This document shows, in pieces, positions 1,272 to 36,003 of a stretch of DNA of 64,000 nucleotides; the stretch's first letter is position 1, and every line of letters starts with the position of its first letter. This stretch comes from Microbacterium sp. ABRD28 (lineage in GTDB: Bacteria > Actinomycetota > Actinomycetes > Actinomycetales > Microbacteriaceae). Made by a program: the position numbers and the translations under genes. The notes beneath the pieces are model-generated. The model was not told the origin of the DNA. It saw only the letters and a list, made by a program, of their open reading frames with translations, and ran no database searches. The DNA lies in the NCBI RefSeq assembly GCF_003850245.1, contig NZ_CP031015.1:3162001-3226000 (forward strand), in the 5' to 3' direction.

Positions 1272-2009
1272 ATGCGACTCGCACCCCAGCTCCACCGCAT
1301 CGGCAACGACATCGTCGCGGCGTATTTCGTCGAGACCGCCGACGGCATCACCCTCATCGACGCCGGACTCCCCGGGCACTGGCGAGACCTCCTCCGCGAG
1401 CTGCGTGCGATGGGACGCGAGCTCAGCGACATCCGAGGGGTCATCCTCACGCACGGCGACAGCGACCACCTCGGCTTCGCCGAGCGGCTGCGCAGCGAGC
1501 ACGGTGTGCCCGTCTACATCCACGCCGCCGACGCCGAGCGGGCGAAGGGCGGCTCCAAGCCGCCGACGCCGATGGGACGCAAGCGGCTCGGCGCGCTGGT
1601 CGGCTTCTTCGCCTATGCGGCGCGCAAGGGCGGGGCACGTACCCGACACCTCACCGAGGTCATCGCGATCGAAGACGGGCAGGTGCTGCCCCTCCCCGGC
1701 GATCCGCAGATCGTCGCACTCCCCGGCCACTCGCCCGGAAGCATCGCGGTGCACGTCCCCGCGGTGCGGGCGGCGTTCGTCGGAGACGCCCTCACCACCC
1801 GCTCGGTGCTCACCGGCGAGGTCGGGCCGCAGCCGGCGCCCTTCACCGACGAGCCGGCCGAGGCGCTCGCCTCGCTCGACCGGCTCTCCGGGCTCGACGT
1901 CGAGTGGATCCTCCCCGGCCACGGCGCGCCCTGGCGCGGCCGGCCAGCCGACGCCGTGGCCGCGGTGCGGGCGGCGGCGTCGGCCTCACTCCCCGGATTC
2001 GCGGGGTGA
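1272..2009 (+). CDS. MBL-fold metallo-hydrolase
   Basis: A 245-residue metallo-beta-lactamase-fold protein. The metal motif appears as THGDSDHLG near residue 63, an HxDxDH variant of the usual HxHxDH. A downstream LPGHSPGS histidine, a GDALTT aspartate and a final PGHGAPW histidine complete the dinuclear site. There is no signal peptide. The ATG at 1272 is preceded by AGAGAAG, while an in-frame ATG at 1218 lies inside the operator and is less likely. Substrate is unknown; family members hydrolyse thioesters, lactones or phosphodiesters. It is divergent from a TetR gene that probably controls it and convergent with the ClpP pair, with a palindromic repeat in the gap. Confidence 0.85.
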   Translation: MRLAPQLHRIGNDIVAAYFVETADGITLIDAGLPGHWRDLLRELRAMGRELSDIRGVILTHGDSDHLGFAERLRSEHGVPVYIHAADAERAKGGSKPPTPMGRKRLGALVGFFAYAARKGGARTRHLTEVIAIEDGQVLPLPGDPQIVALPGHSPGSIAVHVPAVRAAFVGDALTTRSVLTGEVGPQPAPFTDEPAEALASLDRLSGLDVEWILPGHGAPWRGRPADAVAAVRAAASASLPGFAG

Positions 2010-2017
2010 GGCCGGTC

Positions 2018-2097
2018 CCTAACTCCTGCACTTCGGCGCCCGGGGCAGCTCAGCGACCCGAAACCGGCGCCCAGCGGCCCGAAATGCAGGAGTTAGG
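2018..2097. repeat. Palindromic repeat family P1, copy 1
   Basis: CCTAACTCCTGCA (2018-2030) pairs perfectly with TGCAGGAGTTAGG (2085-2097). After one mismatch the stem continues with TTCGG (2032-2036) and CCGAA (2079-2083). It sits between the convergent MBL hydrolase and ClpP-like gene, and its right arm overlaps the ClpP-like stop codon at 2093-2095. It could act as a bidirectional terminator. The core is shared with three other copies in the window. Confidence 0.85.
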
Positions 2098-2698
2098 TCC
2101 GACCCGATTCCGGCTCCCTCTGCAAGACCGTGTCGGCGAGGCCGTACTCGACGGCCGCGGCGGCCGTGAACACCCGGTCGCGCTCAGTGTCGACGCGCAG
2201 CTTCGCCGTATCGACGCCGGTGTGCCGGGCGAGGATCTCCTCCACCTCCCCGCGCACGCGCACCAATTCATCCGCCTGCAGGATGAGGTCGGGGATCGCT
2301 CCTCGGCCCTGTCCCGCCGGCTGGTGCAGCACGACGCGCGCGTGCGGCAGCACGGCCCGCTTGCCTGCGGCGCCGGTCGCGAGCAGCACCGCCCCGACGC
2401 CGATCGCCTGACCGACGACGGTCGTCGCGACATCAGGCCGCACGTGCTGCATCGTGTCGTAGATGGCGAGCATCGCCGCGGGGTCGCCGCCCTCGCAGTT
2501 GATGTAGAGCTGGATGTCGCGTTCGGGGCTGTCGGCATCCAGGTGCAGCAGCTGAGCGATGAGGGCGTTCGCGACGCCCGCGTCGATGCCGGTGCCGAGG
2601 TAGACCACGCGTTCTGCGAGAAGGTGCGAGTAGACATCCATGATGCGATCACCCCGGGGATGCTGCGCCACCACGTTCGGGATCGTGTACCCGCTCAC
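2093..2698 (-). CDS. ClpP-like subunit lacking the catalytic serine
   Basis: A 201-residue ClpP-fold protein (VSGYTIPNVV...) with GTG start. Its start overlaps the upstream clpP stop as GTGA, so the two are translationally coupled. In place of the canonical GQAAS motif it reads GQAIG at residues 96-100, so the nucleophile position is Gly. The triad His (LHQP, about 125) and Asp (DTERD, about 170) remain. YINCEGGDPAAM replaces the usual YINSPGG loop. By analogy with ClpR subunits it would build a mixed ring with its neighbour while being proteolytically inert. No frameshift or other sign of decay is visible, so this looks like a functional non-catalytic subunit rather than a pseudogene. Confidence 0.85.
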   Translation of the reverse strand: MSGYTIPNVVAQHPRGDRIMDVYSHLLAERVVYLGTGIDAGVANALIAQLLHLDADSPERDIQLYINCEGGDPAAMLAIYDTMQHVRPDVATTVVGQAIGVGAVLLATGAAGKRAVLPHARVVLHQPAGQGRGAIPDLILQADELVRVRGEVEEILARHTGVDTAKLRVDTERDRVFTAAAAVEYGLADTVLQREPESGRT

Positions 2699-3324
2699 GC
2701 CGCCACCTCCGATGCGCCGATGCCGAGGCCGGCCGGCCGCCGGCGTCGCGGCACCACCTGGTCGAAGCCGTCGACGATCCCATCGATGAAGCCGTACTCC
2801 TTCGCCTCGATCGCGGTGTACCAGCGGTCGTGGAGCGAGTCGTCGAAGACGCGGTCCACGGGCTGACCGGTGTCGTCGGCGATGAGGGCGAGGACGGTGT
2901 CGCGGGTGTGGCGGAGGTCGTCGGCCTGCATCTCCACCTCGACCGCCGACCCGCCGATGCCGGCTGAACCCTGGTGCATGAGCACCCGCGCGTGCGGGAG
3001 TGCGCGGCGCTTGCCCCTCGTCCCCGCCGACAGCAGGAACTGGCCGGCACTGGCGGCCATGCCGAGGGCGAGGGTGGCGACGTCGTTCGGGATCAGGCGC
3101 ATCACGTCGCGGATGGCGAGCATCGCCGGCACCGATCCGCCGGGCGAGTGGATCCACAGGGCGATGTCGGCGGCCTCGTCCTCGGCGGCCAGCGTCAGCA
3201 GCTGGGTGGTGAGGAGGGTGCCGTTGTCGTCGTCGAGTGCGCCGTCGAGCACGAGCACGCGGTGGTGGAACAGTTCGCGTCGGGTCTCGGGCCCGAACGC
3301 CGGAGGGCGGGGTGTGTCTGACAT
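2695..3324 (-). CDS. ClpP-family serine protease subunit
   Basis: A 209-residue ClpP protein. The triad is intact: Ser92 in LGMAASAGQFLL, His117 in ARVLMHQ, and Asp162 in the DSLHDRW segment that replaces the usual DTDRD. The IHSPGG oxyanion loop is present. The C-terminal tail (RRRRPAGLGIG) is longer and more basic than in housekeeping ClpP. ATG 3324 (MSDTP) is preferred over ATG 3333 because GATGAGA lies just before it. It is coupled to a catalytically dead paralogue downstream. No Clp ATPase or trigger factor is adjacent, so this is probably an accessory pair rather than the main clpP1P2 operon. Confidence 0.88.
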   Translation of the reverse strand: MSDTPRPPAFGPETRRELFHHRVLVLDGALDDDNGTLLTTQLLTLAAEDEAADIALWIHSPGGSVPAMLAIRDVMRLIPNDVATLALGMAASAGQFLLSAGTRGKRRALPHARVLMHQGSAGIGGSAVEVEMQADDLRHTRDTVLALIADDTGQPVDRVFDDSLHDRWYTAIEAKEYGFIDGIVDGFDQVVPRRRRPAGLGIGASEVAA

Positions 3325-3381
3325 GCATCTCATCGTGCGACGGATGCAGAAGTCGCGGCCGCGCGCGCGGCCCTCGGCGGA

Positions 3382-4779
3382 TCAGCTCACGGCAGAGCGC
3401 CGCGAGGGCTTGGCCAGCACGTCGCGCACCGCACCGGCGAGCGCCGACATCACGTGCTCGGGCTCGATGCGACGCGCCGCCTCCACCGCCTCGACGGAGA
3501 GCCGGTGCCGCAGGTCGAGGTCGGTGAGCACCCGCACGAGTGCCTGCGTCATCGCCTCGATGTCACCGTTGGGCACGAGCAGTCCCCCACCGCCGGCGAG
3601 CGCTTCGGCGGGCCCGAAGGGCGCGTCGTAGGCCACGACCGGGCATCCGCGCACCAGGGCCTCCGCCAGGGAGAGCCCCTGCCCCTCGTGCCGGGAGGTG
3701 GAGAGGAAGACGGCGGCCTGGTCGAGCACGCGTCCCGGGTCATCCGTCGGTCCACGCAGCACCACGTGGGATCCGACGCCCAGCTCGTCGATGAGCGCCT
3801 GCACTTCTGCGCGCAGCGGCCCGTCGCCGAAGATGTCGAGCCGCGCCTCGGGAAGCAGGCTGATGACGCCGGCGAACGCCCGTACGGCGTGGTCGACCCG
3901 CTTCTGGAACGCCAGCCGGTTGAGCATCACGACCTGGTGCGGGTCGCGGCCGGCGAGCGGCGCGACGGCGGAGGCAGCGGGCACCCCGTTCGGCACGACG
4001 ATGTGGACGTCCGACGCACCGAAGCGCTCCTGGATGGCGTCACGCTGCGCCGCGGTCGGCCAGAGCACCGCATCGAACCGCTCGGCGACGCTGAACCACC
4101 TCTCCCACAGGGCGTTCGTCTCGGCGTCGAGGGTGTAGGGCGGCTCCATGTGCACCGTGTGGATCGAGTGCAGTAGCCGCACATCGGGGTCGTCCCACCC
4201 GGCGAGAAGCTCGCCGAGCTGCCGCGACTCGCACACGACGATCACCGGCCGTGTCGGGTCATCCGCTCGGAGCTCCGCCGTCACGTGTTCGAGCCATGCG
4301 CGGTAGAGCGCGCCGAACCCGGAGAGGATGCCGCGCACCCGCCCGTCGGTCCCGTGCACGGCGATCGGGGCCGAGGTAATGTGCCAGTCGGGGTCGTCGG
4401 GGATGACGGGCAGCGACAGCGCCGGGTGCCCCGCGGGCACCGGGCGGTATTCCAGCGCCGGGTCGGGGTCTCCGGGGTGCACCGCATCGAGCAGCCACGC
4501 GGCGGCACCGCCATCCGCTCCGCTCGCCTCGTCGAAGAGGTTCCGCATGCGTTCGACGCCGACGATGAGGTCGCGCCCGTCGAAGACGGCGCGGTGGTGG
4601 GCGTGCTCTTCGGGCGTGCCGGGGTCGACGGTGAGGAGGAGGGGCCCGCGCCCGCCATGCACGCCGGCGGCGGCCATCTGGCGCGCCCGCGCGAGGGTGG
4701 CCAGGGTGTATCCGCCGTCCCGGTCGGGGATCAGACGGCTGGAGAGGATGACGTACTCGGCGTCGGGGAAGACGGTCAT
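3382..4779 (-). CDS. Family 4 glycosyltransferase
   Basis: A 465-residue cytosolic GT-B enzyme with no signal peptide or membrane segment. The C-terminal half carries the family 4 nucleotide-sugar signature: MLNRLAFQKRVD, IFGDGPL, and the EX7E-type segment HEGQGLSLAEALVRG. The long N-terminal half with HTVHMEPPY resembles TagE/TarM-like alpha-glucosyltransferases acting on polyol-phosphate polymers, but that is only a resemblance. It starts 9 bp after guaA and lies 57 bp before the ClpP pair, so it may be co-transcribed with both. Acceptor and donor are unknown. Confidence 0.8.
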   Translation of the reverse strand: MTVFPDAEYVILSSRLIPDRDGGYTLATLARARQMAAAGVHGGRGPLLLTVDPGTPEEHAHHRAVFDGRDLIVGVERMRNLFDEASGADGGAAAWLLDAVHPGDPDPALEYRPVPAGHPALSLPVIPDDPDWHITSAPIAVHGTDGRVRGILSGFGALYRAWLEHVTAELRADDPTRPVIVVCESRQLGELLAGWDDPDVRLLHSIHTVHMEPPYTLDAETNALWERWFSVAERFDAVLWPTAAQRDAIQERFGASDVHIVVPNGVPAASAVAPLAGRDPHQVVMLNRLAFQKRVDHAVRAFAGVISLLPEARLDIFGDGPLRAEVQALIDELGVGSHVVLRGPTDDPGRVLDQAAVFLSTSRHEGQGLSLAEALVRGCPVVAYDAPFGPAEALAGGGGLLVPNGDIEAMTQALVRVLTDLDLRHRLSVEAVEAARRIEPEHVMSALAGAVRDVLAKPSRRSAVS

Positions 4780-24701: not shown

Positions 24702-24753
24702 AAGAGAGTCGAATTGGGGCGGAACCTGGGGAGGTTCCGGAATCGACTCTCTT
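24702..24753 (+). promoter_or_regulatory. Long hairpin in the 5' leader of the Hsp70-like gene
   Basis: AAGAGAGTCGA (24702-24712) pairs with TCGACTCTCTT (24743-24753), and inside it GGAACC (24721-24726) pairs with GGTTCC (24733-24738). The structure ends one base before the ribosome site GGGGGAG (24754-24760) of the TTG start at 24769. It could be a translational control element or an operator for the locus regulator. The rest of 24559-24701 shows nothing clear. Confidence 0.5.
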
Positions 24754-24768
24754 GGGGGAGATGAGATC

Positions 24769-26760
24769 TTGGCTACTGGGGCTACGTATTTTTTGGGGAT
24801 CGACGTCGGAACGACGCGGATCGCTGCGGCAACCGCGCGGACCGCGCCCGACGGCAGTATCGTCGCGGCACCGTTCCCGTTGGGACGACGCAATGACAGC
24901 GCCGCGACGGTGGTGTTCGTCGCCGACGACGGCGAACTGCTGATCGGAGACGCCGCCGAGCGTCGTGGCATCACACAGCCCGAGCGGCTCGTGCGCGAGT
25001 TCAAGCGCAGCATCGGCGACGATGTTCCGGTGGTCGCCGGTGGACGGTCGATCCCGGCAGAGAAGCTGTGGGCGCACACCGTCGCGGCCGTCGTCGACGC
25101 GGTCGTCGAGCGCGAAGGCTCCCGCCCCGCCGCCGTGATGCTCACCCACCCCACGGCGTGGGGTCCCCACCGCATCGGCCTCATCCTGTCGGCGCTCGAC
25201 AAGCTGGGCGTCAAAGACGTGCACCTGATCACCGAGCCCGAAGCGGCGGCCCGTCACTACGAGTCCGGTCGGGTGATGGCGGCCGGGCAGGCTCTCGCCG
25301 TCTACGACCTGGGCGGCGGCACCTTCGACTCCGTCATCCTGCGCAAGAGCGCCGACGGCTCCTTCGCTCCCGTGGGCATCCCGGTCGGGATCGACAACCT
25401 CGGCGGCGCGGACTTCGACGACGCCGTGTTCCGTCATGTCCTGCGCTCCTCGGGTGTCGCTGAAGCCGACCTCAACGACGTCGACCCCGACATCCGTCTC
25501 GCGTTGGCGCAGCTGCGCCGCGAGTGCGTCGAGGCCAAGGAAGCCCTCTCGTTCGACTCCGACGTCACCGTGCCGGTGCTGCTCCCCTCCGGGGCGACGA
25601 GCGTGCGCCTCACGCGCCAGGAGTTCGAGGAGATGATCGACGGCTCGATCGAGCGCACGATCGACACCCTCGAAGACGGGCTCGACTCGGCCGGTCTCGA
25701 GCCCGAGGCCCTGGAGAGCATCCTCCTCATCGGCGGTTCCTCCCGGATCCCGCTCGTGGCCGAGCGGCTGTCCGAGCGTCTCGACCGACCGATCGCGATC
25801 GACGCCGACCCGAAGTCCTCCATCGCCCTGGGCGCCGCCCGCGCCCTCGTTCCTGTCGCGGCGGAGGAGTCGGCCACGACGCTCGCGCTCGTTCCCGCAG
25901 GGGCTGCGGTGGGCGCTGCGGGTGCGTTGGCGACGACGGATGCCGCGGCTGCCGCCACGACCGACCTCGCCGTGTTCGACCCCAAGGGTCCGGCCGAGCA
26001 GAAGGCGGCGCGTCGCTGGTACCAGCGCGTGCCCGCCGTCGCCGCGGCCGGAGCGGGCGCCCTCGTCATCGCCACGGGCCTGGTCTTCGCCAGCGCCGGG
26101 GGGCTGGGTGCGGGCACCTTCGACACCACCGCGTCGACCGAGAATCTGCGCGAGTGGGTCGACGTGGAGCTCACGCCGTCGCCGGCGGCTGTCGCTGATC
26201 TTCCGACATCCGACCCGGTCGCCGTAGGCCCAGTACCGCAGGCACCGCAGGCCAAGCAGGACCGCGGCTCGAGCCCGTCGAAGCCGAAGGCCACCAACCA
26301 GCGCAAGCAGGCGGCCGAGCGCAACGCCGCGGTGCGGCCGCCCGACCCGAAGCCGGCCGCGACCCAGTCGCCGACCTCGGGTAAGCCGTCGTCGCCGAAG
26401 CCCTCGCAGTCGAGCGGCGGCGGGAGCACGAGCTCGCCGGCTCCCGGGACGAGCACGCCTGCGCCGGGAACGAGCACCCCGGCACCGGGAACGTCGACAC
26501 CTGCCCCCGATCCGAGCACGTCTTCACCGAACCCGACGCCGACCGAAACCACACCGGACCCGACGCCGACCGAGACGACGCCGGACCCGACGCCGACCGA
26601 AACCACACCGGACCCGACGCCGACGGAAACGACACCGGACCCGACGCCGACCGAGACGACGCCGGCTCCTGAGGTCACGCAGACACAGGAGCCCACACCC
26701 GACCCGCCAGCGGACACACCGCCGGCCGATTCCACCCCGAGCCCCGACAACCCGGCTTGA
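24769..26760 (+). CDS. Membrane-anchored Hsp70-like ATPase with Pro/Thr-rich outer tail
   Basis: A 663-residue protein with TTG start. Residues 1-370 form an Hsp70/actin-like ATPase: phosphate-1 GIDVGTTR, phosphate-2 YDLGGGTFD, adenosine motif LIGGSSRIPLV. There is no DnaK substrate-binding domain. A single membrane helix at about 423-447 (VAAAGAGALVIATGLVFASAGG) is followed by ~210 residues rich in Pro, Thr and Ser, with APGTST and nine-residue PTPTETTPD repeats, probably crossing the cell wall. It heads a four-gene operon and lies 4 bp before the LuxR regulator. A role in sensing or folding at the envelope is inference from topology and neighbours. Confidence 0.85.
   Translation: MATGATYFLGIDVGTTRIAAATARTAPDGSIVAAPFPLGRRNDSAATVVFVADDGELLIGDAAERRGITQPERLVREFKRSIGDDVPVVAGGRSIPAEKLWAHTVAAVVDAVVEREGSRPAAVMLTHPTAWGPHRIGLILSALDKLGVKDVHLITEPEAAARHYESGRVMAAGQALAVYDLGGGTFDSVILRKSADGSFAPVGIPVGIDNLGGADFDDAVFRHVLRSSGVAEADLNDVDPDIRLALAQLRRECVEAKEALSFDSDVTVPVLLPSGATSVRLTRQEFEEMIDGSIERTIDTLEDGLDSAGLEPEALESILLIGGSSRIPLVAERLSERLDRPIAIDADPKSSIALGAARALVPVAAEESATTLALVPAGAAVGAAGALATTDAAAAATTDLAVFDPKGPAEQKAARRWYQRVPAVAAAGAGALVIATGLVFASAGGLGAGTFDTTASTENLREWVDVELTPSPAAVADLPTSDPVAVGPVPQAPQAKQDRGSSPSKPKATNQRKQAAERNAAVRPPDPKPAATQSPTSGKPSSPKPSQSSGGGSTSSPAPGTSTPAPGTSTPAPGTSTPAPDPSTSSPNPTPTETTPDPTPTETTPDPTPTETTPDPTPTETTPDPTPTETTPAPEVTQTQEPTPDPPADTPPADSTPSPDNPA
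26530..26670 (+). repeat. 27-bp tandem repeats coding PTPTETTPD
   Basis: About five near-identical 27-bp units, differing by silent changes, encode the repeated nine residues in the extracellular tail of the Hsp70-like protein. Copy number may vary between strains. Confidence 0.8.
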
Positions 26761-26764
26761 CCCG

Positions 26765-29305
26765 GTGAGCACTCCGATGACGACTCTGCTCAACAGTTCG
26801 TCGGACACCCGGACCGCCTCGATGATGCCCCGTGCACTTCACGCGCTGAGCGCGCTTCACGCCATCGTCGCGACGGATCGGCCCGTCCGCGCCGCCATTG
26901 TGGGGGGCTCCGGCTCCGGAAAGACCGACGCCCTCCGCTTCCTCCACTCTCAGCTCGAAGCCGATGACCGGCCGGTCAGGCTGCTGTCCGCACGCGATCG
27001 CATCTCGACGATCCCCGACGACGTCGCGCTCCTGGTCGATGACGCCCACACGCTCGACCCGGCACGTCTGTCTCAGCTGATCGATCGCGCCCACCGTCCC
27101 GACGCGGCCGTGGTGATCGCGTACCGCTCCTGGCCGGCCTCGTCGGAACTGGTCGAGCTGACCCGCGCGGTGGAACGCAACGCGCCGGCGGTCCTCCTCG
27201 GTGAGGTGACTCACGCCGAGCTGCGGGAGCTCCTCCCCGACGCCTCGGTGGAGTGCGAGGAGCGCATCCTCGGTGCCACCGGCGGTATCGCCTGGCTCGT
27301 GTTCGAGTGCGCGCAGGCGCACGCCGCCCTCGCCTACGACGGGCGCGACTGCGGTGACGACGACGCACACGCCGACGTGACGCGCGCCCTGATGCGCCGG
27401 ATCAGCCACCGCCTCGAGACCGTCTCACCGCGCCTCCGGCGCCGGATCGAATCGCTCAGCCTGGGCCTGAGCGACAGTGAGGGCGATGACCGCGAGGCTC
27501 AGGCCGAGCTCTCTGCCGAAGGCCAGGCGGAGGGTCTGCTCCTGCACAACGGACGTCCCGCTCCCGTGGTGGCGTTGACCGCCCGCGCCAGCGTGCCGGT
27601 CGACCGGCTGGTCGATCTCGTCGAGGTCGGGACGGTCGACCTCGTTCCCGGCTCCGACATCGCGGCGAGCCTCGACGGGATCATCGATCCGCTTCTCGGC
27701 GACCGGCTCGCTGCCCGCGCGCGACGCGAGGTAGGTCGCGATCCGCGCCTGGCCGTGACGCTCTTCGAATACGCGGTCCGGTGCGGCTCCGACCCGCGCG
27801 TCCTGGCCGCGTCGCACGCCCACGCGCTGTGGGCCGCAGGCGACGTCGACGCGGCAGGGTCCCTCCTCGACGAGGTCGCCGCCGATGGCGGCGGTTCCGA
27901 CCTGTCACCGTCCGACCGTGATCTTCTTGCCGACGCGGTCGCCGCCACCTGGGCTGACCGCGGCCTGATGTCGCTCGCGCACCGCAGTTACCTCGCCGTC
28001 CCTCCGCTCTCCCCCGCGGCCAAGACGAGAGCTCTGGTCACGGCGGCAGGCGCCGGGTCGGCCGGCCACGACGAGGATCCGGCGCCGGATGCCTCGGGCG
28101 CGGCCGGCTCGGCACCATCGGCGAACGGTGTGGCGATGCAGCTGTGGGCACGGGGCCTGTGCGCGTCACTTCAGTCGACGCACTCCCGCAGCGCCCTCGA
28201 TGATCTCCGCCGTGCGTCGGAGCTGGCCAACGCTGGCCATGATGCGTCACCCACGACGGAGCTGCCCGCCGTCGTTGCCGCGATCGTCGCAATCGGCCTG
28301 GGCGATGTCGCCGCTGCGCACACCATTCTCGACGAGGCGCAGAGCGCTCGACAGGGTGGTGCCCGCTGGCTCCCGCATCTCCAGCTGTGGAATGCGTGGG
28401 TCGCCCTGCAACGCGAGCAGCCGGTCGAGGCGCGCACCCTTCTCGCAGCCGCGACGCAGGGCACCCGCCTGTCGCCGCGCGATGACCTGATCGCCGCTGC
28501 GGTGACAGTGGGCCTCGCCCGCCGTTACGACGACACACCGACGCTCGAGGCCACATGGGAAGCGGTCAAGTCACGCGCGACGCGCCCCGAAATCGACCTG
28601 TACCTGCTGCTGCCCCTCGGTGAACTGGTGATCGTGGCGGCTCGCCTCGGCGACATGCACTGGACGCAGACGGCCTTCGAACGTGGTCTGGCGCTCGTGG
28701 CCGAATTGGGCGAGCCGGCGCTGTGGTCGGCTCCCCTGCACTGGGCGGGGATCCAGCGGGGCATCATGTTGAACCACCCCGACGACCTCGCGCCTCACGC
28801 CCGAGCGCTGGTCGCCGCGTCCGCCCGCAATCCTCTGGCGGCGAAGATGTCACAGGCGGGCCGAGTATGGACCTCGGTCCTCGCCGGACAGGTTGACCCG
28901 GACGCCGTGGAAGAGGCGGCGCGCGGGCTCGCGTCCGTGGGCCTCGCGTGGGACGGAGCCCGGCTCGCGGGCCATGGTTCGCGCCGATCGGACGACCGAA
29001 AGATCAGCTCGCGCCTCCTCGCCTGTGCGCGGGAGCTGCACCCGCGCGAAGCACCGCGCTCGACGGATGCGGAGTCGCACACGGCAGCCATCCGAACGGC
29101 GACGCCGAGCGTCCTCAGCGAACGAGAGCGCGAAGTCGCCGAGCTCGTCCTGCAGGGGAAGACCTACGCCGAAATCGGCAAGGAGATCTTCATCTCGCCG
29201 CGAACTGCGGAGCACCATATGGCGCAAATCAAGCGGCGCCTGGGCGCCTCTTCGCGGTCGGACCTCATCGCGAAGTTGCGCGTCACGTTGGGGGCGGCCG
29301 GATGA
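26765..29305 (+). CDS. P-loop ATPase / LuxR-type regulator (IniR-like)
   Basis: An 846-residue STAND-type regulator. Walker A GGSGSGKT is at residues 47-54, Walker B VALLVDDAH at 87-95, and helical TPR-like repeats fill about 350-740. A C-terminal LuxR HTH starts near 784 (LSEREREVAELVLQGKTYAEIG ... SPRTAEHHMAQIKRRLG). The layout equals that of MalT/LAL regulators and of IniR, the regulator of mycobacterial iniBAC. GTG start lies 4 bp after the Hsp70-like stop. Its position inside a locus with IniB-, IniA- and IniC-like genes supports an IniR-like role. The signal it senses is unknown. Confidence 0.85.
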   Translation: MSTPMTTLLNSSSDTRTASMMPRALHALSALHAIVATDRPVRAAIVGGSGSGKTDALRFLHSQLEADDRPVRLLSARDRISTIPDDVALLVDDAHTLDPARLSQLIDRAHRPDAAVVIAYRSWPASSELVELTRAVERNAPAVLLGEVTHAELRELLPDASVECEERILGATGGIAWLVFECAQAHAALAYDGRDCGDDDAHADVTRALMRRISHRLETVSPRLRRRIESLSLGLSDSEGDDREAQAELSAEGQAEGLLLHNGRPAPVVALTARASVPVDRLVDLVEVGTVDLVPGSDIAASLDGIIDPLLGDRLAARARREVGRDPRLAVTLFEYAVRCGSDPRVLAASHAHALWAAGDVDAAGSLLDEVAADGGGSDLSPSDRDLLADAVAATWADRGLMSLAHRSYLAVPPLSPAAKTRALVTAAGAGSAGHDEDPAPDASGAAGSAPSANGVAMQLWARGLCASLQSTHSRSALDDLRRASELANAGHDASPTTELPAVVAAIVAIGLGDVAAAHTILDEAQSARQGGARWLPHLQLWNAWVALQREQPVEARTLLAAATQGTRLSPRDDLIAAAVTVGLARRYDDTPTLEATWEAVKSRATRPEIDLYLLLPLGELVIVAARLGDMHWTQTAFERGLALVAELGEPALWSAPLHWAGIQRGIMLNHPDDLAPHARALVAASARNPLAAKMSQAGRVWTSVLAGQVDPDAVEEAARGLASVGLAWDGARLAGHGSRRSDDRKISSRLLACARELHPREAPRSTDAESHTAAIRTATPSVLSEREREVAELVLQGKTYAEIGKEIFISPRTAEHHMAQIKRRLGASSRSDLIAKLRVTLGAAG

Positions 29306-29401
29306 GCGGTGACCCATCGGGGCAACCCCGTAGTACCCCCACGACTTTTCGGGCTAACCCCCGATTCCAGACCGAAGACCAACGCATAGCCTCTGAAAAG
29401 A

Positions 29402-29414
29402 GTCTCGCAGAGAC
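29402..29414 (+). promoter_or_regulatory. Small palindrome upstream of the IniB-domain gene
   Basis: GTCTC-GCA-GAGAC sits directly before the ribosome site CAGGAG of the gene at 29427. The preceding AAAAGAGTC resembles AAAGAGAGTC in the Hsp70-like leader hairpin (24701-24710), so a shared regulator site is conceivable. A second palindrome, GGGG-CAA-CCCC, lies at 29318-29328. Confidence 0.3.
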
Positions 29415-29426
29415 AGGAGCCGACTT

Positions 29427-30140
29427 ATGACTACCCCGCTGGCGACCATCGCCGATGCACTGATCGAGTTCATTTTGAGCCTGCTGAACGATCCTGACGC
29501 AGCAGCTGAATATGACGCCAACCCTGAGGCCGCTCTCGCCAGCGCCGGCCTCGCCGAGTGCACAGCGGAGGATGTCCGCGCTGTCGCGCCGATCATCGTC
29601 GACCGCCCCGACGTGCACCCGACCCCGCACCCGAACCCTCCCGGCCCCGGCCCCAAGCCGCCGGTCGAGAAGGAGATCTGGAACATCGCGAACAACTTCC
29701 ACATCGACAACCGGGCGACCATTGTCGACCAGTCAGTGAACCAGAACATCTGGGCCGAAGGCGACGTCAACCAGATCTTCGACCAGGAAGCCAACGTCGC
29801 CTCCGGCGATGAGTCGATCGCGGCGGGCAACGACGCCAACGTCGACAACTCCGACACCGATGTGACCGTCGGCGACGTGAACATCGGCAACGAAGAGACC
29901 AACGTCGACATCACCGACTCGTTCGACGACGAGTCGACGAACACGGAGACCGACACCACGGTGGTGGCCGACGGTTCGTTCAACGACGGCTCGACGAACG
30001 TCGACGCGGACGTGTCCGCCGACAACTCGTTCAACGAGTCCAGCGAGGTCGTCGTCGAGGAGTCGTACGACTACGACAACAGCGGCAACATCGCTTCTGA
30101 CGACGCGATCGTCTACACCGAGGAGACCGACCAGCCGTAA
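29427..30140 (+). CDS. IniB N-terminal-domain protein
   Basis: A 237-residue acidic protein without signal peptide. Residues 1-60 (ADALIEFILSLLNDPDAAAEYDANPEAALASAGL ...) match the IniB N-terminal domain of mycobacteria. A Pro-rich linker follows, then a low-complexity region rich in Asp, Asn, Val and Thr with a periodic pattern (NQNIWAEGDVNQIF, VASGDESIAAGND, TVGDVNIGNEE) that could form a beta-solenoid. The middle block is closely similar to the core of the protein at 34935-35849. Ribosome site CAGGAG precedes the ATG. IniB's biochemical role is unknown even in mycobacteria. Confidence 0.85.
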   Translation: MTTPLATIADALIEFILSLLNDPDAAAEYDANPEAALASAGLAECTAEDVRAVAPIIVDRPDVHPTPHPNPPGPGPKPPVEKEIWNIANNFHIDNRATIVDQSVNQNIWAEGDVNQIFDQEANVASGDESIAAGNDANVDNSDTDVTVGDVNIGNEETNVDITDSFDDESTNTETDTTVVADGSFNDGSTNVDADVSADNSFNESSEVVVEESYDYDNSGNIASDDAIVYTEETDQP

Positions 30141-30164
30141 CGGTCTCCCCCGTAAGGTTCTTCT

Positions 30165-31412
30165 GTGACCGACGATCAGAAGCCCCCTCAGCCGCGCGCC
30201 GATGCCCCAAGCCGGCGCGCGGCTGAGGATTCTTTCGTGGACGATGTCCTCGCGCAGCACGCGGCGACGGAAAAGAAACGCCGCGACCGCCAGCGTCCGG
30301 CGAACACGGTGCCGACACAGGCGCCGACGCCGGAGGGTCAGATGCAGGGACAGGTGCCCCCACAGGGCAGCGGTACGCCGCAGCAGGCCGGACAGGTCGT
30401 TCCTCCTGGGGATCAGCGACGGCCGCACCCCCAGGGTCAACCGCGGCCGAACCAAGGACAGCAGCGCCCGCAGGGGCAGCAGGCGCCCAGCCAGACCCAG
30501 CAGCGCCCGCAGGGGCAGCAGGCGCCCGGCCGCGCTCAGCAGGGGCCGCAGCGCCCGCAGGGGCAGCAGGCGCCCAGCCAGGGGCAGCAGCGCCCGCAGG
30601 GGCAGCAGGCGCCGCAGCGCCAGCAGGGGCAACCCCCTCAGCGACCGCCGCAGGGCGCGCAGCCGTATCCTGGTCAGCCTCCGACTCGGTCCGGGGCGAC
30701 ACTCGGCCGCATCCAACCGGTGCAGGTTCCGGTGAGCCAGGCGAAGTTCGCGCCCGGCTCCGGGCCGCAGCAGCCGGTTCCGCTGTACACCGATCCCGAA
30801 CCGCAGCAGCCGCAGGGTCCGGTCGTCTCCACTCCGAGACGAGGTTTCCAGCCGAAGCGGGACGCCCCCGAGCGTCCCGCACTGGTCAATCCCTCCGCAG
30901 CGCCCGTCATGGCGAAAGCTCCGCCGCCCTTCACGGTACGGATGTCGCAGTTCCTCTGGGTGCTGAGCTTCGCCGTCGGCGCAGTGGCCGTGGTCTTCTA
31001 CTTCGTCATCCGCGAAGACCAGCTGCCGTTGATCCAAGACGTCATCCGCGGGGTCAACGAGGGCCGCGACGACGCGACCTACGAGTCGGCAGCCGACATT
31101 CTCTTCTGGTCGGTGTTCGGCATCATGGTGACGCTGCTGCTCCTCCAGATCGCACAGTTGGTGTCGTTCTCCGGACGCAAACCCAACATCCGCTGGTGGC
31201 AGCTGGGGACGACCCTGGTCATGGGCGTCGTCTATCTGATCGCTCTAGAGTTTGTCGGGACCGGAGAGTACGGAGCCATGCTCGAGCAGCTCTTCATCGC
31301 GCAAGCCGGACTCGCTGTCCTCGCCCTGCTCTTCAGCACGTTCCCCAACGCTCTGCGCTGGACCGCTCGCCGCGTCGACGTCCGCCCCGCGGGCGGCGCG
31401 GAGGACTTCTGA
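30165..31412 (+). CDS. Pro/Gln-rich membrane protein of the ini-like locus
   Basis: A 415-residue protein with GTG start. Residues 50-185 are dominated by repeats such as QQRPQGQQAP and are probably disordered and cytoplasmic. The C-terminal ~155 residues carry four hydrophobic segments (about 262-283, 310-333, 345-363, 372-392). No known domain was recognised. It ends the rightward operon and overlaps the IniC-like gene by 168 bp on the opposite strand. Position suggests it docks or organises the dynamins at the membrane, which is inference. Confidence 0.75.
   Translation: MTDDQKPPQPRADAPSRRAAEDSFVDDVLAQHAATEKKRRDRQRPANTVPTQAPTPEGQMQGQVPPQGSGTPQQAGQVVPPGDQRRPHPQGQPRPNQGQQRPQGQQAPSQTQQRPQGQQAPGRAQQGPQRPQGQQAPSQGQQRPQGQQAPQRQQGQPPQRPPQGAQPYPGQPPTRSGATLGRIQPVQVPVSQAKFAPGSGPQQPVPLYTDPEPQQPQGPVVSTPRRGFQPKRDAPERPALVNPSAAPVMAKAPPPFTVRMSQFLWVLSFAVGAVAVVFYFVIREDQLPLIQDVIRGVNEGRDDATYESAADILFWSVFGIMVTLLLLQIAQLVSFSGRKPNIRWWQLGTTLVMGVVYLIALEFVGTGEYGAMLEQLFIAQAGLAVLALLFSTFPNALRWTARRVDVRPAGGAEDF
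30450..30640 (+). repeat. Repeat array coding QQRPQGQQAP units
   Basis: Units of 24-30 bp containing CGCCCGCAGGGGCAGCAG recur at least four times with little change within the gene at 30165. Near identity at DNA level suggests recent expansion or homogenisation. Confidence 0.8.
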
Positions 31413-32864
31413 GGCGATCTCTTCGAGGCTCCGGATGACCACGCGGCAGACCTCGACGGCCGCCCGCTCGGTGAGCGGGGACTGACTCAGCGAACGCCAG
31501 TAGGCGAGCTGCGCGTCGACCTCTTCGCGAATTGCCGCGTCGGTCGCCTCGTCGTCGAGTCCGAGTCGGGCGGTGGGCGTCACTCCCTGACCGCCGATGA
31601 TGCGCTCGGCCGTCGTTGAATCCGTCGGACGCAGGGGAAGACCCGAGGCTTTGGCCTGCGACAGGAGCGACAACTCCCGCAGGGTGTGGGCCGTCGCGCG
31701 GATTCGCTCGATCCCGGCGAGGATGGACTGCGTCCCCTCGCGAGGGTCGTCCCGAATCGTCTGCTCCAGACCGTCGAGCACGCCGCGCACCTTCAGGTCT
31801 GCCCCACGCGTGCGGAACTGCTCGCGTACGAAGCCCTGAAGTTCATTCAGGCCGCTGTGCTGCACCAGCTGCTCTGCCAGATCGGTGGAGGTAGACGCGC
31901 CGCCGCGGATCAATGCCACCGCGAGCCGGACACCGAAGATGCCGAAACGGGCGAGGAGGTCCTTCCGCACCTTCTCGCTCAGCGTCGTCACCTCAGACGG
32001 GCGGGCGAAGCGATCGGCCGACACCATCAGGCGTTCGCGATCGTCACGCGGCAGGGCGGCGAGTTCTTTGAACGCCGCGTACTCGCCCTCACGGAGCGTT
32101 TTGGCACTCTCGGCGAGAAGGCCGGCCACGGGAACCACCCCGAGCGACAGCGAGGCCAGGTCGCCGTCCTTCTCGTACCGGCGGGCGACCTTCTGCGCCG
32201 AGAGCATCGAGTCGATGCGTCCGGAGCCGATCTCGTCGGCGCGCGAGAGCACCGCCACCGCATTCACAGTCTCGGACGACCCCGCCGCGGTGTCGCGGAA
32301 AGACTCGAGAAATTTCAGGTCGGAGGCGTGAAGGTGCCGCATGAGGTAGATGATCGCGTCAGCCGACGACGGACGCGCTTCGGGCACGAGGAAGGCCGTC
32401 GACCGGGCGGAGACGTCCGTCGACAATGAGGCGATGCCGGGGGTGTCGATGAGGATGACGGAGCGCAGACCGGTAGACGGCCATCCGACGTCGATCCAGG
32501 CGACCTCCTCGGCCGCGACGCCGTCGAGCTCGAGCACGAGGCGCCCCGCCTCACGCTTGATGGGCATCCGTCGCGGCTCTCCCTCGTGCGGGTGCAGCGT
32601 GATGCTCGGGGTTGTGGAGTAGCGGTACCAGGTCACCACCCGGGTGCACTCCGCCGCATCCGTGGGAGCGAGTTTCTCGCCGAGGATGGCATTCAGGAGC
32701 GTGGACTTGCCCGCCTTGACCATGCCGGCCAGGGCCAGCCTGAGCGGTTCGTGCAGGCGGCGGTGCAGGTCATCCAGAGCCGTCCGAGTGGCGGACGTCT
32801 CATCGTAGAGCTCCAGAGCCGATGCGAGCAGCTTCGCCGCATCGTCGCGTACCGAACTTGTCAC
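31245..32864 (-). CDS. Dynamin-like GTPase, IniC-like
   Basis: A 539-residue GTPase from GTG 32864. G1 is GMVKAGKS (residues 47-54), G3 is DTPG (IDTPGIASLS), and G4 is SRADE in place of NKxD. The G domain of ~260 residues is followed by helical stalk-like segments (ASTSTDLAEQLVQHSGLNEL). There is no transmembrane segment. Mycobacterial IniC is similar in size and also follows IniA. It overlaps the IniA-like stop as GTGA, so the pair is translationally coupled and probably forms a heteromeric membrane-remodelling machine. The last ~55 codons overlap the membrane-protein gene on the other strand. Confidence 0.85.
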   Translation of the reverse strand: MTSSVRDDAAKLLASALELYDETSATRTALDDLHRRLHEPLRLALAGMVKAGKSTLLNAILGEKLAPTDAAECTRVVTWYRYSTTPSITLHPHEGEPRRMPIKREAGRLVLELDGVAAEEVAWIDVGWPSTGLRSVILIDTPGIASLSTDVSARSTAFLVPEARPSSADAIIYLMRHLHASDLKFLESFRDTAAGSSETVNAVAVLSRADEIGSGRIDSMLSAQKVARRYEKDGDLASLSLGVVPVAGLLAESAKTLREGEYAAFKELAALPRDDRERLMVSADRFARPSEVTTLSEKVRKDLLARFGIFGVRLAVALIRGGASTSTDLAEQLVQHSGLNELQGFVREQFRTRGADLKVRGVLDGLEQTIRDDPREGTQSILAGIERIRATAHTLRELSLLSQAKASGLPLRPTDSTTAERIIGGQGVTPTARLGLDDEATDAAIREEVDAQLAYWRSLSQSPLTERAAVEVCRVVIRSLEEIASEVLRAARGADVDAASGPAQSVGERAEEQGEDSESGLRDEELLEHGSVLSGPDKL

Positions 32865-34783
32865 CGCCGCACGGTCTCCAGCTGTTTGATGGCCGGCACA
32901 TTCGGGATCTTGGAACGCACCGTTTCGATCTGGGCGATCTGCGCCTGCAGCTGCTTGACCCGCTGGTCTTGGTTCGCCGAGAACGAGCCCGCAGCCTGCT
33001 TGGCCGCGAGCACGGCCTCGGACAGCGAGCGATGGAGCTCGTCGGCGATGCTGCCGAAGTGGTCGCGCGCCGCGCGCTGCACCATACGAAGGCGGTCCTT
33101 CAGCTGCTTGGAGACCTGGAAGATCACCTCGTCGATGTGTCTGCGGACGATGTTCTTCGCCTCGAAACGGCGGCGCGACAGGCGGTTGCCCATGTCTTCG
33201 CGATACGCGCGACGTCCCACCAGCACACCGGCGAGGAGGGAGAGCGGGTTGATCAACGAGAGGCCGATGAGGCTGGTCGCAAGCCCGACCATGAGCACCC
33301 CGCCATAGGATCCGCGGACGCCGATGAAGATCTTCTCGCCCGCCCCGAGCGTACCCGCATCCAGATGAGAGATCTGGTCGATCGGATCGAGCACACCCGA
33401 CGTGTCGGCCACGTAGACGAGAGGAATCTCGGTCTCGCCCTCTTGGAACAGATCCGCGACCTCCTCGCACAGCCAGCGTGAGCGCTCGTCGGTCCAGACG
33501 AAGGTCTCGGACACCGCGGCCGAGACGCGCTGGTCAAGCCAGTCCGTCATCTGCTCCCAGATGGGGCCGGGGTCACCCTCGTCGATGGCGTTCTCAGCCT
33601 CGCGCTGCACCCGGCGGAGGCGGTCGCGCAGGTCGTGCTCCATGTCGGAGATGAGGTCGGCGACGCCGTCGTTGAGCGCCGTCTGCCATTTCGACGAGCG
33701 CCCACGGAACTCTTCTGCGCGCGACTTGGCGTCTTCGAGCTGCGCGATCATGCGAGGGGTGTCTTCAGGATGCAGGATGGCGCTCAGTTCGGTGTTGAGC
33801 GACATCTGGAGCTGGTCGACGACGGAGACGAGATCGTGCACCGCTGAGCGAGCCTGGATGTCCTCCGCGCGACCGAGCACATCACGGCGCAGGTGCGAGA
33901 CCAGGGCGGGGAAGCCCGACTCGTCGTTGAGTTCCCGATCCTGCATCTGCGCGGCCATCAGCCGCAGGTCACTCGAGACGGAGAAGACGGGAACCTCACC
34001 GACATCGCCGAGGTGGCCCCGATCGATCTGCTCGATCTCACGCCAGTGCGGGTAGAGGTCCGTCTTGGCGATGACCGCAGCCACGTTGGGTGACACCCGC
34101 ATCGCGTGACGGAGGAACTGCACCTCGGGCTCGGTGTACTCCTGGGACGCGTCCGACACCAGGAGCACCGCGTGCGCGCTGGAGAGCGCCGCGAGGGTCG
34201 TCAGGGCGTTCGTCGAGTCCAGACCGCCGACACCCGGAGAGTCGACGAGGCGCAACCCACCCTTGAGCAGCTCGCGCGGCAGCGCGACCTCGGCACCGAC
34301 GATGTGCTGTTCGTTCTGCGGGTTGCCTTTTTCCGACACGAAGTCGGCCAGCTTCTCGAGCGGAACCTCGAGCCGTTCGACGACACCGGGCTCACCATCC
34401 TTCTGCGTGACGACCCAGGCGCCGGGTGTTTCGGCATAGCCCACCGCCGTCGGCACACTCGTCGCGACGTCGTCGTCCACGGGGCACACCGGGGCGTTGA
34501 CGAGGGCATTGATGAGTTTGCTCTTGCCCTTCTTGAACTCCCCCACCACGATGACGCGGACGTTCGGGTCCTTCAGGCGATCGCGGGTGTGGTGGAGCCG
34601 GTCCGCGAGGTCGCCTCGCCCGGCGGATTCCGCAAGCGTGCCAATGCTGTCGACCAGGGTGACGAGCGTCCTCCCGGTCTCACTCTGTGCCAGCGCCGGC
34701 AGTGCGACATCCTGACCCTGCTGCTCCTGTCCCTGCAAGCCCTGACCCGCCGCCACACGGCCGCCGTTCGTCTTCTCCGCCAC
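32861..34783 (-). CDS. Dynamin-like GTPase, IniA-like
   Basis: A 640-residue GTPase. G1 is GEFKKGKS (residues 81-88), G3 is DSPG (LVDSPGVGGLD), and G4 is AKTDLYPHW. A long helical region follows, then a hydrophobic paddle near residues 480-520 (GGVLMVGLATSLIGLSLINPLSLLAGVL), as in IniA, which binds and splits membranes. GTG 34783 is chosen because AAGGGGGA stands just before it; ATGs at 34804 and 34810 lack a ribosome site. The C-terminal helices (ASFSANQDQRVKQLQAQIAQI) are coiled-coil-like. Confidence 0.88.
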   Translation of the reverse strand: MAEKTNGGRVAAGQGLQGQEQQGQDVALPALAQSETGRTLVTLVDSIGTLAESAGRGDLADRLHHTRDRLKDPNVRVIVVGEFKKGKSKLINALVNAPVCPVDDDVATSVPTAVGYAETPGAWVVTQKDGEPGVVERLEVPLEKLADFVSEKGNPQNEQHIVGAEVALPRELLKGGLRLVDSPGVGGLDSTNALTTLAALSSAHAVLLVSDASQEYTEPEVQFLRHAMRVSPNVAAVIAKTDLYPHWREIEQIDRGHLGDVGEVPVFSVSSDLRLMAAQMQDRELNDESGFPALVSHLRRDVLGRAEDIQARSAVHDLVSVVDQLQMSLNTELSAILHPEDTPRMIAQLEDAKSRAEEFRGRSSKWQTALNDGVADLISDMEHDLRDRLRRVQREAENAIDEGDPGPIWEQMTDWLDQRVSAAVSETFVWTDERSRWLCEEVADLFQEGETEIPLVYVADTSGVLDPIDQISHLDAGTLGAGEKIFIGVRGSYGGVLMVGLATSLIGLSLINPLSLLAGVLVGRRAYREDMGNRLSRRRFEAKNIVRRHIDEVIFQVSKQLKDRLRMVQRAARDHFGSIADELHRSLSEAVLAAKQAAGSFSANQDQRVKQLQAQIAQIETVRSKIPNVPAIKQLETVRR

Positions 34784-34870
34784 GCATCCCCCTTGGTCGT
34801 GCATCCCCACTCACACGGTACGCCAATCTCCCCCGTGCGAGAACTGCCGCCCAGCCGGGCGGTAAACGCG

Positions 34871-34908
34871 CCTTGCCCGGCCACTCCCCAAGGGGTGGCC
34901 GGGCAAGG
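34871..34908 (-). terminator. Terminator between the NSD-repeat gene and the dynamin genes
   Basis: CCTTGCCCGGCCAC (34871-34884) pairs with the matching right arm ending at 34908 to give a stem of about 16 bp. It lies 26 bp past the stop of the gene at 34935, so the abundant upstream message and the dynamin operon may be differentially expressed. Confidence 0.85.
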
Positions 34909-34934
34909 TGTGTTCGTTACAGAACCGCGTCAGA

Positions 34935-35849
34935 TCAGAGGTTGACCTCGTCGATGACGGCGCTGCCGTCGCTGAAGAAGTTGCCGCTGTTCTCCCAGTC
35001 GAGATCGTTGTTGGTCTCGGTGTACTCGTACTCGTTGAACGCGTTGTCGAGCGCAACATCGATGTCGGTGTTGGTCGACGAGTCGTTGAACGAGTCGTCG
35101 ATGTCCAGCTCGTACTCGTTGACCTCGGTCGAGGACTGGTCGTTGAACGAGTCGCTGATCGAGAGCGAGTTCCACTCGTTGCCGATGTAGACGTCGCCCA
35201 CGGTGGTCTCGGTGACCGAGTTGTCGACGTCGACGTCGCCGCCGGCCGCGATGGACATGTCACCCGAGGCCACAGCGGCACCCTGGGCGAAGCCCTGGGT
35301 GACGTCGCCACCGGCTGCGATGTTCTGGTTGACCGACTGGTCGACGACCGTGGTGCGGTTGTCGATGGCGAAGGTGCCACCGGCAGCAGCAGCAGCGGCC
35401 GCGCCACCGGCGCCAGCGCCGTGGAACGCGTAGTCGTTGCCGACGTTGGTGTTGTACTGACGCATGCCGACGTTGATGGACTCGTCGGTCAGGTTGTAGT
35501 CGTTGTACGAGTCGGTGTTGCCGGAGTCTTCCCAGCTGTTCTCCGAGTTGTCGTTGTACGAGTCGTTGACCGAGTTGTCCGAGTTGTCGGAGTTGTCCGA
35601 GTTGTCCGAGTTGTCGGTCAGCTCGACGTCGAGGTCGACATCGATCGAGTTGTCCGAGTTGTCGGAGTTGTCGGAGTTGTCGGAGTTGTCGTTGAACGAG
35701 TCGTCCGCGTCGTTGTCGACCGAGTTGTCAGAGTTGTCGGAGTTGTCCGAGTTGTCGGTGTTACCCGAGTTCTCGTTGCCCACGATGCCGATGTTGTTGT
35801 CGTCGTTGTCAACGATGTTGTCGTTGAAGTTGTCTTCGATGTCAGGCAT
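34935..35849 (-). CDS. Acidic Asn-Asp-Ser repeat protein, paralogue of the IniB-domain protein core
   Basis: A 304-residue protein with no lysine and no cysteine, very rich in Asp, Asn and Ser. Three runs of DNSDNS-type repeats occur at about residues 32-44, 55-68 and 79-92. A glycine/alanine patch (GAGAGGAAAAAAAGG) near 165 is followed by a core (NRTTVVDQSVNQNIAAGGDV, VASGDMSIAAGGDVDVDNS, TTVGDVYIGNEW) nearly identical in pattern to the protein at 29427-30140. It has no IniB N-terminal domain and no signal peptide. ATG 35849 follows GAAAGGGA. Function unknown; composition suggests an ion-binding or phase-separating structural protein. Confidence 0.8.
   Translation of the reverse strand: MPDIEDNFNDNIVDNDDNNIGIVGNENSGNTDNSDNSDNSDNSVDNDADDSFNDNSDNSDNSDNSDNSIDVDLDVELTDNSDNSDNSDNSDNSVNDSYNDNSENSWEDSGNTDSYNDYNLTDESINVGMRQYNTNVGNDYAFHGAGAGGAAAAAAAGGTFAIDNRTTVVDQSVNQNIAAGGDVTQGFAQGAAVASGDMSIAAGGDVDVDNSVTETTVGDVYIGNEWNSLSISDSFNDQSSTEVNEYELDIDDSFNDSSTNTDIDVALDNAFNEYEYTETNNDLDWENSGNFFSDGSAVIDEVNL
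35565..35760 (-). repeat. 9-bp tandem repeats coding Asn-Ser-Asp
   Basis: Blocks of the 9-bp unit TTGTCSGAG (plus strand) occur around 35570-35620, 35648-35692 and 35728-35760 inside the gene at 34935. In-frame gain or loss of units would only change repeat length. Confidence 0.85.
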
Positions 35850-35950: not shown

Positions 35951-36003
35951 CCCCTAGGGGTCCGGTGCGGGGTTTCGGGGTTCGGAGTCTCAGGGGTTTC
36001 GGG
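35951..36003 (-). promoter_or_regulatory. Candidate regulator sites upstream of the NSD-repeat gene
   Basis: The 186-bp gap to the divergent methyltransferase holds the perfect palindrome CCCCTAGGGG (35951-35960) and two direct copies of GGGGTTTCGGG (35969-35979 and 35993-36003) spaced 24 bp, about two helical turns. LuxR-type regulators often bind such paired sites. Link to the IniR-like regulator is unproven. Confidence 0.4.

Follow-up and report, generated by a model that had tools for sequence, protein, structure and literature searches.

Does a bacterium in which mycolic acids are not expected on taxonomic grounds possess an ini-type locus, and does the Hsp70-like gene next to its regulator belong to this locus? 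The question is raised by positions 24769-35849 of a stretch of 64,000 nucleotides from Microbacterium sp. ABRD28 (contig NZ_CP031015.1, a single-contig genome of 3.27 Mb), the whole of which is called the window here. An original prediction, made from the letters alone, had proposed an ini-type locus outside the mycobacteria, and all seven of its genes were found open and in place. The window contains a discrete ini module outside the mycobacteria, and the Hsp70-like protein is part of the shared ini core and not a local extension, because each of the 18 ini-positive genomes in a class-wide sample carries such a gene within or next to the locus. The genes may constitute an envelope-stress module in which a transmembrane pseudo-Hsp70 acts via IniR on IniB-type proteins and dynamins, a reading to which we give about an even chance.

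Two samples were searched, 120 genomes of the family and 246 of the class. IniB_N was found in 9 of the 120 family genomes. The IniA profile matched 12, the same nine with more than 680 bits and the other three with no more than 87 bits. The IniR profile matched 105, only the same nine with more than 320 bits; the next score, 54 bits, was a match to the C-terminal helix-turn-helix (HTH). At E 1e-40, the Hsp70 profile matched 113 family genomes, with at least 434 bits in the same nine, followed by 282 and 277 bits in the ini-less genomes G118 and G056 and then by scores of no more than 201 in the DnaK range. Of the nine loci, 8 had contributed to the IniA profile and 7 to the Hsp70 profile, and G060 and G044, both outside the Hsp70 profile, still scored 486 and 446 bits. 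A chance agreement of such 9-genome sets among 120 genomes is negligible, with the reservation that kinship among the genomes makes the counts not independent, which speaks against giving them full weight.

The class sample gave the same picture. IniB_N exceeded the cut-off in 18 of the 246 genomes (21 with a match at E 0.001). The IniA profile matched 50, the same 18 with more than 780 bits and G126 next with 595 bits, and the IniR profile matched 237, with more than 250 bits in the same 18 and in G126, which has IniR and IniA only. An Hsp70-like gene was located inside or beside the ini locus in 18 of the 18 ini-positive genomes, eight of them mycobacterial-looking; the proposal that Hsp70 "extends" the ini set thus had to be given up. 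Co-occurrence as such was borne out, and neither the regulator nor the dynamins fell into unrelated clades, the outcomes named in advance as speaking against the prediction.

Gene order was compared in named loci, which are the best 80 of 537 IniA relatives from one scan. IniC was present in 80 of the 80, IniB_N in 73, IniR in 72, an IniB-type core in 77, and the gene of a four-helix membrane protein in 74; three of the six loci without the latter (L106, L115, L135) had enough flanking sequence. Hsp70 was found in 67 loci, and the other 13 reached the contig end before its expected place. A same-strand IniR gene followed within 1.5 kb in 64 of these 67 loci, and in 7 of 8 mycobacterial-looking loci the Hsp70 gene immediately preceded IniR and was oriented divergently to the first IniB_N gene. 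In layout A (Arthrobacter, Agromyces, Naasia, Georgenia), the order is Hsp70, IniR, IniB, IniA, IniC with iniB-iniA-iniC all in one direction and the membrane gene convergent. In layout B (Microbacterium), Hsp70, IniR, and IniB are followed by the membrane gene, which faces IniC, then IniA and a second IniB. The genes in the window (Table 1) form two convergent operons and not a single iniB-iniA-iniC operon. Layout B occurs in Phycicoccus and Propionibacteriaceae assemblies as well, and a transfer of the locus between families is suggested, as far as a tree can do so, because the dynamins from one Phycicoccus and one Propionibacteriaceae assembly nest with those of Microbacterium.

Table 1. 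Features of the ini-type locus, with positions in the window.
Feature	Position	Strand	Evidence or remark
Hsp70-like (pseudo-Hsp70) gene	24769..26760	+	PF00012, E 9.4e-37
IniR-like STAND/LuxR regulator	26765..29305	+	NF038181, 331 bits, E 1.4e-98; PF00196
Predicted (degenerate) IniR operator, three same-strand ACCCC	29325..29361	+	5' of the iniB-like gene
IniB-like protein (IniB_N)	29427..30140	+	NF038175, 71.9 bits
Pro/Gln-rich four-helix membrane protein	30165..31412	+	Hydrophobic segments; structure model
IniC-like dynamin	31245..32864	-	PF00350, E 2.6e-11; IniC side of the 100/100 branch
IniA-like dynamin	32861..34810	-	6j72, E 1.4e-131; IniA side of the 100/100 branch
Second IniB-type protein, Asn/Asp/Ser repeats, without IniB_N	34935..35849	-	56% identity to the IniB-like protein
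Predicted IniR operator, four same-strand ACCCC including CCCCTAGGGG	35957..35997	-	5' of the reverse operon

The Hsp70-like protein comprises an actin-like/Hsp70 nucleotide-binding domain (residues 1-360, approximately; the best PF00012 stretch stops at residue 357), a transmembrane segment at about residues 423-441, and a 221-residue tail rich in Pro, Thr, and Ser. It shares the nucleotide-binding domain and the phosphate motifs with the DnaK/Hsp70 chaperones and differs from them by its transmembrane anchor and outside tail, by the lack of a substrate-binding domain, the criterion for an Hsp70 chaperone, which was not found with Pfam, and by a Glu in place of the catalytic Lys. In DnaK, this residue, Lys70, is required for hydrolysis. 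The same position was occupied by Glu in 68 and by Lys in none of 77 Micrococcales rows, by Glu in 7 of 9 f18 rows, and by Lys in none of 12 mycobacterial-looking rows, in which further motifs had been lost, too. As judged from these features, the protein is not an ordinary chaperone. Of the "membrane-anchored Hsp70-like ATPase" in the original prediction, the Hsp70-like domain and the membrane segment remain, and the label "ATPase" is put in doubt by the absence of the catalytic Lys.

A hydrophobic segment after the nucleotide-binding domain was present, at a lenient cut, in 66 of 68 Hsp70-like proteins (67 named loci plus the window; in both exceptions the frame is broken), and the tail behind it had a median length of 230 residues, about half of them Pro, Thr, Ser, or Glu. 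The outside part varies among relatives: that of G126 (L148) is a beta-propeller, and Pfam identified a galactose-binding-like outside domain in the protein of the ini-less G118 (L159), which has a response-regulator gene alongside. The intermediate Hsp70 scores of G118 and G056 both came from genes adjoining a response regulator, and IniC-profile matches there were weak (49 and 38 bits) and had no Pfam match. Stand-alone membrane-anchored Hsp70-like proteins beside a LuxR-type response regulator were also noted at L159:8781-11550 and L160:8318-11611 of ini-less genomes; the L160 tail resembles that of L159 by eye. L054 (~1553-3450) and L055 (~413-2030) each contain a second pair about 12 kb off the ini locus, in which an Hsp70-like gene is divergent from an IniB_N gene whose frame spans about 1550-1600 codons. 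The Hsp70 match at L050:4566-5615 is a true DnaK and was left out of the counts.

The regulator was matched by the NF038181 profile of NCBIfam from residue 26 to residue 842 and carries a P-loop GxxxxGKT near residues 47-54 and a C-terminal LuxR HTH (PF00196, residues 782-836, E 3.1e-14). The full-length profile match, the LuxR HTH, and the position in an ini locus together classify it, at the level of sequence, as IniR-like, as had been claimed from its build. Its 331 bits do not reach the equivalog cut-off of 750 bits, a cut-off that was reached by none of the 120 family genomes and by 8 of the 18 ini-positive class genomes. The boxes recognized by MalT, another STAND/LuxR activator, are direct repeats, in which they resemble those described below; the window locus differs by other boxes and the absence of maltose genes. 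The domain order of MalT is the same as that given for IniR in the available part of PMC5760070. Two adjacent IniR-like frames, the second without the middle part, were seen on one contig of G224 (L150:268-4317).

Candidate operator boxes point to the genes that such a regulator may control. In 42 of 45 loci with layout A and in 23 of 38 with layout B, the 250 bases in front of the IniB_N region contained CCCCTA or TAGGGG; the maxima in 200 rounds of dinucleotide shuffling were 17 and 9 loci, respectively, and no row was dropped. In the Hsp70-iniB gap of the mycobacterial-looking loci, three direct repeats of this box followed one another at nearly constant intervals in 7 of 7 loci (shuffle maximum 2), these being the seven of eight in which a start codon was found; L058 has a double repeat with the same 9-base spacer. 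A scan of 18 genomes retrieved the triple box from all eight ini-positive genomes of the mycobacterial-looking genus, at the ini locus in seven and elsewhere in G201, and from none of five ini-negative genomes of this genus or five genomes of other genera; a reversed control pattern gave two matches. In G168, a second triple box is located just before its second Hsp70 gene.

In the window, ACCCC is found upstream of the iniB-like gene on the + strand at 29325, 29335, and 29357, and a fourth copy at 29433 lies within the first codons; before the reverse operon, it is found on the - strand at 35957, 35969, 35977, and 35993. These two promoters are the only 120-bp stretches of the window with four ACCCC copies, + at iniB and - at the reverse operon; stretches with three copies exist at three other places per strand. 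The arrays before both operons support the prediction of one regulon. A palindrome, ATCGGG...CCCGAT, upstream of iniB in 14 of 58 regions (mononucleotide shuffle maximum 1), was rejected as an operator: the exact form is not in the window, and it could be a hairpin.

The adjacent dynamins with a 4-bp overlap of the original prediction were recovered, GTGA being shared by the two genes. Residues 49-625 of the IniA-like protein were aligned by phmmer with the solved IniA of Mycobacterium smegmatis (6j72). Of the 70 dynamin rows placed in a tree, 36 IniA and 34 IniC sequences were separated from each other by a 100/100 branch, with a long-branch warning for L157, L158, L156, and L148. The window contributes one dynamin to each side, and its IniA-like protein groups with IniA of the mycobacterial-looking genomes, in agreement with the full-length similarity. 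Identity of the best IniA segment to Microbacterium sp. AK009 reaches 92%. L154 and L155 have an IniA-like gene and neither Hsp70 nor IniC within the examined stretches. Operons with the order dynamin, membrane-anchored Hsp70-like protein, dynamin are located at L158:8808-14422 and L162:6930-12557, in two genomes of the window's family that lack IniR and IniB_N.

The IniB-like protein exceeded the NF038175 cut-off of 40 bits in NCBIfam, as the claim of an IniB N-terminal domain had required. It consists of the helical IniB_N domain and an Asp/Asn/Ser-rich region with a DQSVNQNI / GDV.Q.FD core; in the structure model, the predicted local distance difference test score (pLDDT) was about 95 for residues 11-60 and below 60 beyond residue 100. 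A LigA-like helical domain, with the LigA domain of SonA as the reference for fold and sequence, was considered for IniB_N as well. The gene of the Asn-Asp-Ser repeat protein, with 35849 as its best start, was present as predicted, and what had been missed is that its product is an IniB paralogue without IniB_N, aligning with the IniB-like protein over 142 aa (E 1e-39). A beta-solenoid for the IniB/Asn-Asp-Ser region was dropped because past residue 100 the model had a pLDDT under 60 and was devoid of strands. IniB has been called glycine-rich in the accessible text of PMC6715688; the IniB of L058 fits this description, and Asn/Asp/Ser runs occur in addition in other IniB proteins of mycobacterial-looking origin. 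Separate IniB_N proteins, Gly-rich and with a frame of 914-995 codons, were seen near 8.4-9.6 kb in L139, L140, and L141, which belong to mycobacterial-looking genomes; the surrounding 18-19 kb contained no further gene of the ini type. The Pro/Gln-rich four-helix membrane protein was substantiated by a Pro/Gln-rich N-terminal part, four hydrophobic segments, one of them weak, and a modelled helical bundle at residues 224-415 (mean pLDDT 91.3). No family exceeded the cut-off in Pfam or NCBIfam and none was found in PHROGs; a known fold was sought with Foldseek, the best E value of which, 0.15, provided nothing usable.

How these components may act together is suggested by analogy to mycobacterial IniR and IniA, which makes envelope stress or membrane repair the candidate function of the locus in its Microbacterium host. 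According to the excerpts of PMC5760070, IniR binds the iniBAC promoter and activates iniBAC upon exposure to wall inhibitors or trehalose, and its authors conclude that sensing is done by a periplasmic system. The accessible part of PMC6715688 describes M. smegmatis IniA as cutting membranes by GTP-dependent fission, and overexpression of iniBAC improves growth under drugs, as stated in the excerpt of PMC13413693. The pseudo-Hsp70 would have its nucleotide-binding domain in the cytoplasm and its Pro/Thr-rich tail reaching into the wall. Wall damage would change its state, and it would then license the adjacent STAND activator IniR. IniR would bind the direct-repeat C-rich boxes 5' of iniB, and in the window also those of the second operon, and induce the genes of the IniB-type proteins, the four-helix protein, and the two dynamins. 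Remodelling or sealing of the cytoplasmic membrane would be the task of the dynamins, and IniB, flexible and very acidic, may serve as a scaffold.

Several observations weigh against this sequence of events. Concerning the boxes, no exact CCCCTA was found upstream of iniB in the window or its nearest relative L059, the triple box was absent from the ini-positive G224 and G235 of other genera, and boxes were present in 2 of 5 f18 intergenic regions. CCCCTA preceded 16 of 54 second IniB-type genes of other loci, a number within the range of the shuffles (mean 10.4, maximum 18), and its occurrence upstream of Hsp70 (14 of 75 regions) was counted without a control. A unique regulon could not be read from ACCCC triples in the own genome, which gave 25 matches versus 11 for the reversed control; 3 of the 25 were in the two ini promoters. 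Concerning Hsp70, a copy in L047 has no transmembrane tail, the gene is beside IniC and apart from IniR in L058, the eighth mycobacterial-looking locus, and in five f18 loci it is divergent from IniB, with IniR away at the far end. Hsp70 and dynamins without IniR, as in L156, L158, and L162, would fit a direct partner of the dynamins. A Mycobacterium marinum screen table in the available part of PMC5760070 lists IniR and no gene named Hsp70; several of its entries are unnamed.

Some of these arrangements lead to a different assignment of Hsp70 within the same ini module: the anchored protein may govern assembly or disassembly of IniA/IniC or IniB at the membrane, and IniR would sense ATP, a sugar, or another ligand alone. 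This is less likely and is nevertheless kept in consideration because dynamins are accompanied by Hsp70 also in loci that lack IniR, as Hsp70-IniA-IniC in L156 and as dynamin-Hsp70-dynamin in L158 and L162, all without IniR or IniB_N. The five f18 loci agree with it, and IniR, a MalT-like ATPase in the excerpts of PMC5760070, could sense alone. Against a role as effector partner, Hsp70 directly before IniR is the commonest order (64 of 67 named loci), the outside domains vary as sensor domains do, and the catalytic Lys has been lost, unlike in an uncoating ATPase. Moreover, L157 has an IniA-IniC pair and no Hsp70 within its 14 kb.

Alternatively, the locus may serve mainly as a membrane-level phage defence, with dynamins acting on the attacked membrane under STAND-like control. 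The patchy distribution (9 of 120 family genomes) and the between-family transfer suggested by the tree would suit such a system, and the PADLOC models LeoBC and LeoA matched the IniA-like (68 bits, E 2e-19) and the IniC-like protein (31 bits, E 2.7e-08). In these matches the locus resembles the LeoABC dynamins; no Leo gene set was recognized in it. PADLOC had no match for the Hsp70, IniB, membrane, and Asn/Asp/Ser proteins and matched the regulator at its HTH only, PHROGs had none for the four proteins scanned, and the mycobacterial homologues respond to wall inhibitors (excerpts of PMC5760070), which makes this explanation quite improbable. That an ini cassette lies by chance beside unrelated Hsp70 and membrane genes would explain why no link emerged from the family libraries searched (Pfam, NCBIfam, PADLOC, PHROGs) and is extremely improbable with Hsp70 in each of the 67 named loci on contigs long enough to include its position and the membrane gene in 74 of 80.

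The pseudo-Hsp70 as a sensor acting on IniR can be extended beyond the window. In Actinobacteria, transmembrane pseudo-Hsp70s without catalytic Lys and substrate domain but with exchangeable outside domains could form a class that senses the state of the envelope and signals to STAND/LuxR activators and dynamin pairs. Its best-conserved case would be the ini system, the mycobacterial one included, and the pseudo-Hsp70 would be the sensor facing the periplasm that the IniR pathway has lacked, all of which is put forward tentatively, as a possibility well short of an even chance. It would fill a gap, the route from damage outside the membrane to IniR, for which the accessible text of PMC5760070 has periplasmic sensing and names no membrane sensor. 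A conserved, usually anchored protein encoded before iniR in easily grown Micrococcales makes sensing testable without mycobacteria or mycolic acids, inactive-looking Hsp70 domains become candidate signalling parts, and the predicted shared operator can be used to find the regulon.

This kind of locus is already known, the drug-induced iniBAC operon since 1998 (a reference in the available part of PMC6715688). New are the widespread and discrete occurrence of ini outside the mycobacteria, the pseudo-Hsp70 in its core, and the description of the second IniB, the four-helix protein, and the conserved boxes. The window shares with mycobacterial iniBAC and IniR the IniB_N protein, IniA followed by IniC, and IniR, and the eight mycobacterial-looking genomes also have the anchored Hsp70. 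It differs by the convergent two-operon layout, the extra IniB-type protein, the four-helix membrane protein, and an IniR below the equivalog cut-off. No link between ini and Hsp70 or Hsp70 and dynamins was found in the literature searched, with subscription papers mostly outside this search; PMC8017856, the one paper with both words, is a review on exosomal miRNAs. The FhaA interactome table in the excerpt of PMC11898655 describes Rv0312/MSMEG_0692 as Pro/Thr-rich, with one transmembrane segment and ATP binding. This architecture, compared by the table description only, is that of the Hsp70 in the locus. Rv0312 is presumably located away from ini in M. tuberculosis.

Two further observations concern the ends of genes in the locus. 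An inverted repeat at window positions 24702-24753 with 11-base arms (inner GGAACCT/AGGTTCC) abuts the ribosome site of the Hsp70 gene; this form was not seen in seven other loci inspected, and in L059 one arm is imperfect. The convergent genes of IniC and the four-helix membrane protein overlap in their coding regions by 168 bp (window 31245-31412), at the 3' end of IniC.

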